From Gemmatimonadota bacterium (lineage in GTDB: Bacteria; Gemmatimonadota; Gemmatimonadetes; Longimicrobiales; Gaopeijiaceae), in contig JACQVF010000105.1 of NCBI GenBank assembly GCA_016209885.1, positions 1 through 64,000 of the forward strand: a stretch of 64,000 nucleotides of DNA, written 5' to 3'. This document shows, one piece after another, positions 45,364 through 52,711 of the stretch. Made by a program: the position numbers and the translations under genes. The notes under the pieces are model-generated. The model worked only from the letters and a program-made list of their open reading frames with translations. It had not been told where the DNA came from and ran no database searches. Position 1 is the first letter of the stretch; every line of letters begins with the position of its first letter.

Positions 45364-46046
45364 GGGGCCACCTGCGCAAGGGCATACACAAAGAGGTTGA
45401 TCCCCATTCGAATCGCCTGCTCGCGAATGTGCGGCGGATCCCCGTGCACCTCCGGATCCTCCCAGCCATCGCCCAGATCCGACTCGTAGCTGTAAAAGAG
45501 GATCATGCGACCGGAATGGAAAACCGCGAACCCCTGAGGCGGCTTCCCGTCGTGTTCGTGGATCTTCGGGAGTCCGTCCGCGAACGGATAAAAGACTCTG
45601 TAGACGGCGTGATCCGCGGGCAACTCCACCAGCTCCTTGTCCGGAAAGAGGAGCCGCACCTCACGCCGGAGGCTCTCGTTCATCCCGTAGTTATCGTCCG
45701 CGTGCAGGAACCCGCCGCCCAGGAGGTACTCGCGCAGCGCCCGCCGCTCCTCCGGCGTGAAGCTCACGTTCCCGTGCCCCGTCATGTAGATGTAGGGATA
45801 ATCCCGGAGCGCCGGGTCCAGCGGCGTCACCACGGCCTCAGCCCGCGCGACCGCTAGCCCGGTGCGCTCCGCGATCGCCGCGAGCAAGTTCGGTAGCGAA
45901 GAAGGATTCGCGTACCAGTCGCCGCCGCCGCCGTAGTGCAGCCGCCCGATCGTGAGGAGCGTATCCTCCGGCGGAACAGGCGGCGGCATCGAGCCGGCCG
46001 CCAGCGGCGCGGCTACCAGCACCAGGGAGATGAGCGCACACGGCAT
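45360..46046 (-). CDS. DUF4159 domain protein
   Basis: Exported protein of 228 residues with a signal peptide (MPCALISLVLVAAPLAAG) and a DUF4159 body: YPYIYMTGHGNVSFTPEER, LREYLLGGGFLHADDNYG, ELPADHAVYRVFYPF. The fold is GATase-like and probably binds other envelope proteins; no catalytic role is known to me. The ATG at 46044-46046 lies 4 bp from an inverted-repeat element (46051-46255), so its ribosome-binding region and any promoter must come from the element. The frame also runs open through the element, but that part is repeat DNA. Confidence 0.88.
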   Translation of the reverse strand: MPCALISLVLVAAPLAAGSMPPPVPPEDTLLTIGRLHYGGGGDWYANPSSLPNLLAAIAERTGLAVARAEAVVTPLDPALRDYPYIYMTGHGNVSFTPEERRALREYLLGGGFLHADDNYGMNESLRREVRLLFPDKELVELPADHAVYRVFYPFADGLPKIHEHDGKPPQGFAVFHSGRMILFYSYESDLGDGWEDPEVHGDPPHIREQAIRMGINLFVYALAQVAP

Positions 46047-46050
46047 CGTG

Positions 46051-46255
46051 CTAGTGTCCCGTCCCCGAAATTCCTTGGCATTCGACCGCCGCTGCATTCC
46101 GCATCGCTCGGTTGCTCCCCCTCGAAATAGCGGTGCTATTCCTTCGTCGCCCTCACCCCACGCAACCTTCGTTGCGTGGGGACCCCGGTCGCGCCTTGCG
46201 CTGCGGGCGCATCGGCGCCCTCGGCGCACAAGGAACTTCTGGGACGGGACACTAG
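46051..46255. mobile_element. MITE-like element, family B, copy 1
   Basis: A 205-bp element with 27-bp terminal inverted repeats (46051-46077 and 46229-46255, two mismatches) beginning CTAGTGTCCCGTCCC. A perfect 11-bp hairpin (46156-46166 with 46171-46181) carries the GTCCCCACGCAAC core. No coding capacity for a transposase. The outer CTAG could be a target duplication, or TA as in IS630-derived elements. It supplies the rsmI stop codon at one end and the upstream region of the DUF4159 gene at the other. Confidence 0.85.
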
Positions 46256-47100
46256 ACCGGCCTATCCTCCGGGAGTGAATGAACGAGCTCGTACGCCCGG
46301 TTCCGAGGAATCCCCAGCCTGCGCGTGAGCTCGCGCGCGACCGCACTGGGCCGCTTCCCTTGCGCGAGCAGCACGCGGGCGAGGGCACACCCCGCATCCT
46401 GGTCGGCGGCATCCGGCTCGCGTTCTGCCGCCGTGCCCTCCACGACCACGGTCACCTCCCCGCGCGGCGCCACCTCCTCGTAGTAGCGGCGCGCCCCGTC
46501 CAAGGTTCCGCGAAAGAACTCTTCATGCACCTTCGTGAGCTCCCGGGCCACGGCCACGCACCGCTCGCCGCCGCACCGCTCGGCCAAATCTTCAAGCAGC
46601 GCCAGCAGCCGGTCCGGTGCCTCGAAGAGTACCGCAGTCTCTGAGGTCGTGGCGACTGCATCCAGCAGCCGGGCACGGGCTGCGCCGCCTCGCGGTAGGA
46701 ACCCCAGAAAGCTGAACCGCCCGAACGGCAGGCCGGAGGCGACCAGGGCCGCGAGCACCGCCGATGCCCCGGGGATCGGCGCCACGCGGTGGCCCGCGCT
46801 CAATGCGGCGGCCACGATGCGCGCCCCCGGGTCCGAGACCAGCGGCGTTCCCGCATCCGACACGAGCGCCACGTCCAGCCCCTCTCCCAGCCAGCGGCTC
46901 ACCAACTGGGCGCGCCTCGCTTCGTTGTGCGCGTGCGCCGAAGTGACCGGCGTCCCGATGCCATAATGGCGCAGCAGGAGCCGCGTGCGGCGCGTGTCCT
47001 CCGCCACGACGCGGCCCACGCCGCGAAGCACCTCCACGGCGCGATACGTGATGTCCCCGAGGTTGCCGATCGGCGTGCTCACCAGATAGAGCGTCGCCAT
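46252..47100 (-). CDS. rsmI: 16S rRNA (cytidine-1402-2'-O)-methyltransferase
   Basis: SAM-dependent methyltransferase of the tetrapyrrole-methylase fold that modifies C1402 of 16S rRNA. The 282-residue protein has LYLVSTPIGNLGDITYRA, VVAEDTRRTRLLLRHYGI, ALVSDAGTPLVSDPG, PIPGASAVLAALVASGLP and the C-terminal helical part. The UAG stop (46252-46254) lies inside the terminal repeat of the adjacent element. The C-terminus RAYELVHSLPEDRPV still looks near complete. It lies 43 bp after the unknown gene at 47144. Confidence 0.95.
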   Translation of the reverse strand: MATLYLVSTPIGNLGDITYRAVEVLRGVGRVVAEDTRRTRLLLRHYGIGTPVTSAHAHNEARRAQLVSRWLGEGLDVALVSDAGTPLVSDPGARIVAAALSAGHRVAPIPGASAVLAALVASGLPFGRFSFLGFLPRGGAARARLLDAVATTSETAVLFEAPDRLLALLEDLAERCGGERCVAVARELTKVHEEFFRGTLDGARRYYEEVAPRGEVTVVVEGTAAEREPDAADQDAGCALARVLLAQGKRPSAVARELTRRLGIPRNRAYELVHSLPEDRPV

Positions 47101-47143
47101 GAGCGAAGCGCCGCGCCGCGCCAGGGACCCCGTTGCCCGGAGA

Positions 47144-48115
47144 TCAGACGGAGAGCGGCCAGGGGAGCCGACTCAGGAACCCCTGCTGATTCAGGGCGAG
47201 ACGTGCCGGCGCGGTGGCCGCATCCGCGACCTCTGCGGGTGAGAGGAGCCCATGGCGCTCCGCCCGGCGCAGCGCGCGCAGGAACCAATCCGCCACACCC
47301 GCGGTCAGCACGGGGGCCGTGGCGACCGGCTCGCCCACGATCCGGTCTCCCTCGAACCCCAGCCCACCCAGACACGCGTGCTGGGCGGCGGCCTCGGCGA
47401 GAGCCGTCACCACCGCCTCGCGTGCCCGCTCCACGCCGATCTCCGCTCCCAGCAGCGCCAACGTTTGCTCCAGGAGTCCCCCGTACAGCCGCACGAGCGC
47501 GGGACCCGCCTGGGCGGGAAGCTCGCTCACCGGGGCGTAGGCGCGCACTCCGCACCGCCGCCAACCTTCGGCGTTCAGCAGCGACTTGAGAAAGTCGCCC
47601 CTGGAGAGACCCGGCGGCAGCCCCGCCAGGTACGCTTCCGCAACCTCGCCCCCCCTGAGCACCAGGTAATGAAGAGCCGCGGGCGCCTCCAGCTCGAGCA
47701 CACCGTCAAGCTGGAGCTGCCGCACCTGGAAGAAGAAATCGACGGGATCCGCGGTATTCAGCGCTGCGCCCGCGTCCAGCAACGCCCCCGTCGACGCGTA
47801 CATCGCCCGGAGCTGGCTCTCCGGCATCCCGTAGTAGAAGATGTGGCCGTGGTCGTCGCCCCGCTCCACCACCCGCACCACCTCGCCGATGGGCACCAGG
47901 GCAGCCCGCTTGCCCACCTCGCGCCGCGCCGCGCTCACCCCCTCGCCGTCGCGCATGAAGATCCAGTAATGGATCTGCCCCAGGACCACGCCCACCAGAC
48001 CGTCCACGCGCGCGCGGCGGTCCCACATGGCGTCGTTCAGGATGTTCGGGAGGTTCACGTAGCGGAGCTTCGTCTTCTCAAGGTAGACGCGCTCCCTCGC
48101 CAGATCGAGGCTCAT
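47144..48115 (-). CDS. Conserved-looking protein of unknown function
   Basis: The 323-residue soluble protein starts at ATG 48113-48115 (MSLDLARERVYLEKTKLRY). The first 110 residues are beta-rich (GLVGVVLGQIHYWIFMRDGEGV, GDDHGHIFYYGMPESQLRAMY) with a possible effector domain. The rest is helical (LEAPAALHYLVLRGGEVAEAY, VERAREAVVTALAEAAAQH), with the spaced leucines and DUF4388-like feel of bacterial regulatory scaffolds. I do not recognise a catalytic motif. It precedes rsmI. The upstream open frame is arginine-rich and not coding-like. Confidence 0.75.
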   Translation of the reverse strand: MSLDLARERVYLEKTKLRYVNLPNILNDAMWDRRARVDGLVGVVLGQIHYWIFMRDGEGVSAARREVGKRAALVPIGEVVRVVERGDDHGHIFYYGMPESQLRAMYASTGALLDAGAALNTADPVDFFFQVRQLQLDGVLELEAPAALHYLVLRGGEVAEAYLAGLPPGLSRGDFLKSLLNAEGWRRCGVRAYAPVSELPAQAGPALVRLYGGLLEQTLALLGAEIGVERAREAVVTALAEAAAQHACLGGLGFEGDRIVGEPVATAPVLTAGVADWFLRALRRAERHGLLSPAEVADAATAPARLALNQQGFLSRLPWPLSV

Positions 48116-48398
48116 GGAATCGTTCGCTCCCGCCCCGGCCCGCGGGGACCGGCCGGAGGCTGCGGAGAAGACGCGCAGGCCGCCACGAGTCGACCGTAAG
48201 ACCGTAACGGCTACGCTGGATGCGACGAGGGCGCAAGCCCGCGCTGCCGACACAAAGCGCTGCCGAGCCCCGTATGCTCGGAAGCTCGCCATACCCGACC
48301 TGCGCCCGCGGCGCAGTAGCGCGAGCGCGCCGACCGCGCTCCGCCCCTGCAACCGTCCGGCCTCGAGAGGACTCGAGGGTCCGCCCCGGCGGTGACGG
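48116..48398. other. Intergenic region with no recognised feature
   Basis: A gap of 283 bp between trxA and the unknown gene on the same strand. It is uniformly GC-rich. I see no element end, hairpin with T-run or promoter that I can support. Confidence 0.4.
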
Positions 48399-48746
48399 CT
48401 AGACCTCCTCCCCGAGATGCTCCAGGATCTTCCGCTCCAGATACCCCTTGGGGACGGCGCCGATCACCGTGTCCACGTGCTCGCCGTCCTTGAAGAACAG
48501 GATGCTGGGAATCGATCGGATGCTGAACCGGCTCGATACCTTGGGATTGTCATCTACGTCCAGCTTCGCCACCCGGACGCCGCGGTCGTGATATTCGCCC
48601 GCGAGCTGCTCCACGATGGGCGACACGATCCGACACGGACCGCACCACTCGGCCCAGAAATCCACGATGACGAGGCCCCTCGACCCTCGAACCTCCACAT
48701 CGAAATCCTCATCCGTCACCGCCGTCACCTTCCCGTTCTCCATCAT
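48399..48746 (-). CDS. trxA: Thioredoxin
   Basis: Cytoplasmic disulfide reductase of 115 residues. The active site is DFWAEWCGPCR; the cis-Pro loop is RSIPSILFFKDGE. Of the three possible starts (GTG 48752, ATG 48746, ATG 48743), ATG 48746 has AAGGAG at a spacing of seven. It is divergent from the epimerase gene over about 115 bp. Confidence 0.95.
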   Translation of the reverse strand: MMENGKVTAVTDEDFDVEVRGSRGLVIVDFWAEWCGPCRIVSPIVEQLAGEYHDRGVRVAKLDVDDNPKVSSRFSIRSIPSILFFKDGEHVDTVIGAVPKGYLERKILEHLGEEV

Positions 48747-48861
48747 CTCCACGCTCCTTGTTCCAGCCGAACGTTCATGTTACGATCGCCGCCGAACCGT
48801 CGGCGCCGCCGCACTTCCCACGTGGCAACCCGCGTGCCACCACCCCAAAAGGATGAGACCC

Positions 48862-49251
48862 ATGAGCGGACTGCCCGTGGATCACGTGGCCGTCGCGGTG
48901 CCGTCGCTCCGCGACGTCATCCCCTTATTCGAACGGCTGACAGGCCATTCGAGTTCCGAGATCGAGACGCTCGCGGACCAGGGGGTCAACGTGGCGTTCG
49001 TCGGGCCGCTCGAGCTCCTGGAGCCGAGCCACCCGGACGGACCCGTCGTCCGCTTCCTCCAACGCCGTGGTCCTGGCCTACACCACATCGCCTTCCGTGT
49101 GCCCGATGTGGCGGCAGCCCTCCGCAGCCTGGAGGACGCGGGCTTCCAGCCCATCGACCGGGAACCCCGTCGGGGCGCCCGCGGGCACCGGGTTGCCTTC
49201 CTCCACCCCCGCCACACCGCCGGCGTACTCCTGGAATTGGTCGAGGCGTAG
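48862..49251 (+). CDS. mce: Methylmalonyl-CoA epimerase (glyoxalase-fold)
   Basis: The 129-residue VOC-fold protein has VDHVAVAVPSLRDVIPLFE at the N-terminus and GLHHIAFRVPDVAAALRSL in the second half, with a terminal Glu in LLELVEA. The paired His and Glu metal ligands match methylmalonyl-CoA epimerase, which interconverts the (S) and (R) forms in propionate metabolism. Other VOC enzymes share the fold. The ATG at 48862 has AGGATGAG upstream; an in-frame ATG at 48853 is less well placed. Confidence 0.88.
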   Translation: MSGLPVDHVAVAVPSLRDVIPLFERLTGHSSSEIETLADQGVNVAFVGPLELLEPSHPDGPVVRFLQRRGPGLHHIAFRVPDVAAALRSLEDAGFQPIDREPRRGARGHRVAFLHPRHTAGVLLELVEA

Positions 49252-49277
49252 GGACGCTTCGGACAGACCGGTTACCC

Positions 49278-49817
49278 TCACGGAACCCGCGGGTTCAGGA
49301 TCCGCTCGACGTCGACCAGCTCGACGAGCCAGGCGCCTTTGCGGGTGCGCACCACGGTGAACGGGATCGAAGCCTCTCGCGCGCCCATGCGCACGCGCAC
49401 CATAACCTCGACCGCCTCGCTCGTGCGGCCGGGCACGCCCAGTTCGCTCTCCACGCTGTAGTCATCATGGCGCAGGATGTTCGCCAGCAGGTCCATCCGC
49501 TTCTCCACCTCATCCCGCGGGTAGAGCTCCAGGATGGCGCCCTCGCGAGTGCCGAACAGGCGTGCCATGACCTCGAGGGCGCCCCTCATGCCCTCGGGAC
49601 TTGCGCCCCGCCTGCTCCGCAACTGCGCGGCGGCGTTCGCCGCATGCAGGAATCGCTCGACCACGAGCGCCGGGGCAACCTCGCCGGCTCCGGCGCGCTC
49701 GCCTCCGGAGCTCGCCGTGCGGCTCACGCAGGCGGCGACTGCCGTGATGGAAAGCAGGATCGCTAATGTCCCGTCCCGGACATTCCTTGGCGTTCGCTTC
49801 GCCGCTGCATCGCGCAT
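49278..49817 (-). CDS. Lipoprotein whose start lies inside an inverted-repeat element
   Basis: The 179-residue product from ATG 49815-49817 has a signal peptide of lipoprotein type (RDGTLAILLSITAVAAC, lipobox AVAAC). The mature body resembles NTF2-like or DUF4878-type lipoproteins (VVERFLHAANAAAQLR, SIPFTVVRTRKGAWLVELVDV). The first 15 or so codons, the start and a GAGGAGGAG about 12 bp upstream all lie in element copy 2 (49763-49970). No ATG, GTG or TTG exists between the element edge and the signal peptide. The native start was probably replaced when the element inserted. Function unknown. Confidence 0.7.
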   Translation of the reverse strand: MRDAAAKRTPRNVRDGTLAILLSITAVAACVSRTASSGGERAGAGEVAPALVVERFLHAANAAAQLRSRRGASPEGMRGALEVMARLFGTREGAILELYPRDEVEKRMDLLANILRHDDYSVESELGVPGRTSEAVEVMVRVRMGAREASIPFTVVRTRKGAWLVELVDVERILNPRVP

Positions 49818-49970
49818 CGCTCTGCGTTGCTCCTCCTCGAAATAGCGCTGCTGCTCCTTCGTCGTCCTCACCCCACGCAACATTCGTTGCGTGGGGACCC
49901 GGGTGGCGCCTTGCGCTGCGGGCGCATCGGCGCCGTCGCTGCACAAGAAACTTCTGGGACGGGACACGAG
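49763..49970. mobile_element. MITE-like element, family B, copy 2
   Basis: A 208-bp element in the same orientation as copy 1 and closely similar along its length (about 85-90% by eye). The ends are at 49763-49789 and 49944-49970, with the GTGTCCCGTCCC-type repeat. A perfect 11-bp hairpin (49871-49881 with 49886-49896) carries the same core. The CTAG seen at both ends of copy 1 is CTAA at one end and CGAG at the other here, so any target duplication has decayed. Confidence 0.85.
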
Positions 49971-50086
49971 GAGCGGCTTCATGATGCCCCGGGCTCGGGA
50001 CTCGACAACCCGCCCGAACGCCCCATGCGGGAGCCGAGCCGGCGGGTGGGACCGGCATTCGACGTTAGACCCGCCCGGCCACCCGG

Positions 50087-52711
<2,625 letters not shown>

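Follow-up and report, generated by a model that had tools for sequence, protein, structure and literature searches.

Bacterial MITEs, among them the Correia elements, Chunjie and the QMITEs of Coxiella, are reviewed in PMC10969869. The element described here resembles them in being short and non-coding, with terminal inverted repeats, a short target duplication, a strong hairpin and tens of copies that are mostly intergenic. It departs from them in that its cognate transposase was not found (few families were tried and the assembly is incomplete), in that different genera share its inner core but not its terminal arms, which covary, and in that its CTAG target often lies on TAG stop codons.

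The Rickettsia palindromic elements (RPEs; Ogata 2000, 2002), in the account of them given in PMC10969869, occur in frame within coding genes, nearly half of the first-reported copies doing so. The likeness to these is one of function, a palindromic mobile element that sits in a coding gene without breaking its frame and may be translated, but in-frame insertion recurs in the Rickettsia account, whereas we found one clear case among 54 copies, in a different phylum. QMITE insertions in Coxiella extend host proteins or supply their stop codons (PMC5896051); the shared feature is MITE sequence that lengthens a host protein or provides its stop codon. The Coxiella cases described in that source concern 3' ends, mid-ORF positions and stops; in contrast, the present insertion divides a signal peptide and brings a potential new start.

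We matched the element at 49763-49970 to no named family, and the resemblances above appear to be functional. It is a MITE-like insertion in frame, of a known kind but in an apparently undescribed family, no description of this Gemmatimonadetes element family having been found in the literature searched. What is new is the family itself and a signal peptide split, and possibly re-started, by a mobile element. An earlier sequence-only reading of the window (the whole 64,000-nucleotide stretch of DNA analysed) had proposed that the element provides the start codon and N-terminus of a lipoprotein; its observations were confirmed in part and its interpretation is partly supported, as set out below.

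Structure and Distribution of the Element

Perfect 11-bp inverted ends (TGTCCCGTCCC...GGGACGGGACA) bound a palindromic element of 200 bp at 49767-49966, assigned to the plus strand by the orientation of GTTGCTCCTCCTCGAAATAGC. Many family copies have CTAG on both sides. In the alignment the target copies of the present element are each one base off, CTAA on the left (49763-49766) and CGAG on the plus strand, or CTCG on the minus strand, on the right (49967-49970). Joining its flanks over one CTAG restores the length found in orthologs. The element thus combines terminal inverted repeats, a short target-site duplication, a length of 200 bp and multiple copies with the lack of a transposase gene, all MITE characters, and as single-stranded DNA it folds much better than shuffled sequence (z = -5.5).

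BLAST gave about 30 matches in the element's own genome, many of them partial or related, including five further near-full copies with 87-89% identity to the 49763-49970 copy, copy 1 being one of the five. These matches bore out the claim that 49763-49970 is a second copy of an element seen elsewhere in the window (copy 1, 46051-46255, plus strand), and in the same orientation. Private differences number 14 (7%) in the 49763-49970 copy versus 5-7 in each of the remaining near-full copies. In relatives from the same family and order the inner core recurs, joined to different terminal arms; 54 two-ended copies were counted in the sampled genomes, and the repeat family is shared among Gemmatimonadetes.

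The arms vary among copies yet are complementary within each (L027, L056-L063, L167-L173, L174-L185 and others), the inner core being conserved. Over 32 copies, the two arms of one copy match on average at 11.06 of 12 inner-arm positions, a value that none of 5000 shuffles reached, compared with 7.79 for arms of different copies, and G013 alone gives 11.0 within and 8.96 between. This covariation could be explained by different transposases serving the different arm types, or else by selection or copying that acts through the hairpin. An inner hairpin, CCCCACGCAACATTCGTTGCGTGGGG (49863-49901 in the window, and in G000 copies C83, C59, C54 and C109), also occurs within other repeats of the own genome, and the 165-bp copies in relatives lack it; apparently it is an independent module that entered the element core.

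No pair of element ends about 1-2 kb apart was present in the own genome, the assembly of which is incomplete. PF13751 and PF05598 were absent from the same incomplete assembly, these being among the few transposase families tried, and PF01797 gave one match there, weak and partial. As candidate parents, PF13751 (own genome), PF05598 (29 relatives) and PF01797 (12 genomes) were rejected, since they are missing from most element-rich genomes. With no parent transposase found, we call the element MITE-like and go no further. Rfam gave no credible match across 45900-50100.

The Interrupted Lipoprotein Gene

On the minus strand, the lipoprotein gene body (49278-49762) comprises an h-region, the lipobox AVAAC and a mature domain, and is conserved downstream of clpB (50087-52711, minus strand). 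Pfam returned no match to it. Gene-body matches were obtained in 50 of the 59 genomes searched, and clpB precedes the gene at 24 of 25 fetched loci, the own genome being included in both counts. A search of genome contigs with the single protein gave no match; one with the ortholog alignment matched seven Gemmatimonadetes/Longimicrobiales MAGs.

The element separates this body from its native 5' end, ATG AAG CCG CTC (MKPL; 49971-49982, minus strand), identified from the joined flanks and from orthologs; the clpB stop codon lies 104 bp before this ATG. Joined over one CTAG, the flanks read ATG AAG CCG CTC CTA GCG ATC CTG..., giving a protein that starts MKPLLAILLSITAVAAC or, at greater length, MKPLLAILLSITAVAACVSRT. 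Element-free orthologs in the same place after clpB start MAPLLATGLLALATTAC and MKPFLAVLVPVLMLAAC, and in both the lipobox Cys is residue 17. The joined site agrees in start, length and position after clpB with G057 (MAPLLATGLLALATTACVTRT) and G051 (MKPFLAVLVPVLMLAAC), and the DNA at the joint is CCGCTCCTGGC in G057 versus CCGCTCCTAGC in the joined site. The Cys is invariant in the ancestral form and six aligned orthologs, and is reached by residue 17-24 in the orthologs examined.

The joined flanks and the orthologs, with their 17 residues to the Cys, establish that the element split an existing signal peptide. The CTAG target occupies codons 5-6 (CTA GCG), codon 5 (CTA) lying inside it, so that a pre-existing lipoprotein signal peptide was interrupted at codon 5 in a gene that already had a start. 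Both edges match one ortholog, which argues against misassembly. Comparison with an element-free ortholog had been suggested as a check on the element-borne start; when run, it places the ancestral start elsewhere, at ATG 49982, just outside the element and beyond its other edge. With an empty site and orthologs at hand, the locus is a clean before-and-after case of a mobile element that entered a secreted protein at its most position-sensitive part, with the gene apparently surviving.

Two In-Frame Starts after the Insertion

Within the element, on the minus strand, the Shine-Dalgarno (SD)-like sequence GAGGAGGAG (49838-49830) stands 12 nt before an ATG (49817-49815) in the lipoprotein frame. 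The frame from this ATG reads MRDAAAKRTPRNVRDGTLAILLSITAVAAC and then runs on into the lipoprotein, with the lipobox Cys at residue 30. The purine-rich sequence, the ATG and the basic n-region all come from the element, as the sequence-only reading had it, and we likewise saw no in-frame ATG, GTG or TTG from the element edge up to the signal peptide. GAGGAGGAG and the ATG belong to the family consensus and are nothing peculiar to this copy; by our own estimate, chance alone would put the element ATG in frame with a gene about one time in three or four.

Upstream, the lipoprotein frame also stays open across the entire element and beyond its far edge, as far as the native ATG 49982 (MKPLL...). 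The distance from the native ATG to the ATC codon was 18 nt before the insertion and is now 222 nt, a net gain of 204 nt or 68 codons with no stop, and because the frame was left open two starts compete. The proposal that the element supplies the start therefore holds in that ATG 49817 is a plausible working start, and fails in that it is not the sole one, the native ATG lying in the same open frame.

Several features distinguish the two starts. Best-match SD energy with the anti-SD is -11.1 kcal/mol for the element ATG and -5.0 kcal/mol for the native ATG, compared with +1.0 to -6.6 kcal/mol for eleven other starts in the window, and the SD region is unpaired at 0.57 for the element start versus 0.26 for the native one. 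The 12-nt spacing of the element SD is longer than usual, and the stop-free element frame would let ribosomes from the native ATG pass through. The Cys falls at residue 85 from the native ATG, and in its present form the protein has a short lipoprotein signal with a lipobox only from the element ATG. On these features, ATG 49817 is likely to be favoured over the native ATG as the main start.

The gene body has kept all 28 of the 28 positions conserved among 31 orthologs. Its codon-position GC is normal (0.73/0.50/0.87) and it contains no stop or frameshift. By its conserved residues the gene looks alive, and the intact body, despite 14 private differences in the element, suggests that the insertion is not very recent and that the gene has not decayed. 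The gene has probably been useful ever since the insertion. No second genome of the same genus turned up among the relatives searched.

The reading we hold somewhat better than even is that a MITE-like element entered the CTAG in codons 5-6 of a gene beginning MKPLLAILLSITAVAAC, and that translation and export would have persisted, mainly via ATG 49817 with its strong element SD. The new signal peptide would then consist of a basic, element-derived n-region before the h-region and lipobox that the gene already had. Some product probably still comes from the native ATG, and in it a 68-residue insert before the h-region would be expected to make export poor. Whether the element both broke and repaired the signal peptide, the SD, ATG and basic stretch that it carries starting the protein and keeping up its export, is a question we would answer either way with equal readiness. 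If such start-site capture occurred, these parts of a mobile DNA now begin a protein and keep it exported. The two-start situation at this gene amounts to a simple prediction.

Alternatively, ATG 49982 may still be the main start, with the element translated through in the manner of the RPEs to give a 68-residue insertion followed by an internal signal or signal-anchor. The net insertion of exactly 3 x 68 nt, open all the way, speaks for this, as does the CAG that this copy has in the lipoprotein frame where copy 1 has TAG. The native start has, however, a weak SD and a paired start region, and the signal peptide would begin some 70 residues into the protein, far from its place in the orthologs. 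Moreover, the native frame is open from edge to edge in two other near-full copies as well (C35 and C11), which makes the open frame in part a family trait. We consider translation from the native ATG as the main route unlikely, if a real contender.

A still less probable explanation is that the insertion damaged the gene, which is now becoming a pseudogene with accidentally open frames. Harm is to be expected when an insertion hits a signal peptide, and the chance of an in-frame join estimated above is not small. Against decay stand the fully retained conserved residues, the normal codon-position GC and the lack of any stop or frameshift, although the element copy has itself diverged privately by 7%.

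CTAG Targets and Stop Codons

The sequence-only reading had suggested a survey of all copies for a bias to lie just upstream of start codons in one orientation. We surveyed the stretches around copies in G000, G013, G018, G020 and others, with the flanks joined over CTAG and genes called by a simple codon-score script, so that single assignments may err. Start codons within 30 bp number 7 on the side faced by the SD and ATG and 3 on the opposite side (p = 0.34); within 100 bp the figures are 16 and 8 (p = 0.15). Neither orientation bias is significant, an outcome that the sequence-only reading had itself named as refuting its wider idea. The strong positional signal lies instead at TAG stops and is equal in both orientations: in 24 of the 54 two-ended copies, 12 in each orientation, the last three bases of the CTAG target are the in-frame stop codon of an adjacent gene, compared with 12 of 110 other CTAGs (Fisher p = 4e-6). 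This excess may come partly from the removal of gene-breaking insertions. An element family that seemingly sits beside gene starts is really marking CTAG targets, which are rare here and often coincide with TAG stops. IS870 and similar insertion sequences also use CTAG targets that overlap TAG stops; unlike IS870, the present system yielded no transposase or related IS, and IS870 is a lead only.

Copy 1 belongs to the stop-codon class. The alignment of copies shows its equivalent ATG meeting an in-frame TAG at the element edge, as had been reported, and the TAG stop (46254-46252) of the upstream tetrapyrrole-methylase gene lies within its target CTAG. The start of a DUF4159 gene (ATG 46046, minus strand) lies 4 bp past its other edge. 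Copy 1 simply landed on the tetrapyrrole-methylase stop codon and does not represent, as had been supposed, a second mode of joining one 5' module to genes. A dedicated 5' module of start, SD and n-region, spread by joining genes at their starts, is a very improbable role for the element and is largely refuted by the survey: 7 of the 10 starts within 30 bp do lie on the side faced by its SD and ATG, but the orientation bias is not significant at either distance, the targets fall on TAG stops equally in both orientations, a TAG closes the ATG frame of copy 1, and a clear ortholog-supported fusion is seen in 1 of 54 copies.

Examples of stop-codon targets are 46252-46255 in the window, L028 2625 and L042 1922. 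The own genome has 70% G+C, and CTAG occurs 19 times in the window (1-64000) versus about 177 expected from base composition, making it roughly nine-fold rarer. A second short palindrome, CAGGTCGCTGAAGAGCTACAGCGACCTG, whole or in part, abuts several copies with CTAG beside it, in the right flanks of C96 (L031), C11 (L030), C47 (L042) and C45 (L044), and is possibly another CTAG-targeting mini-element.
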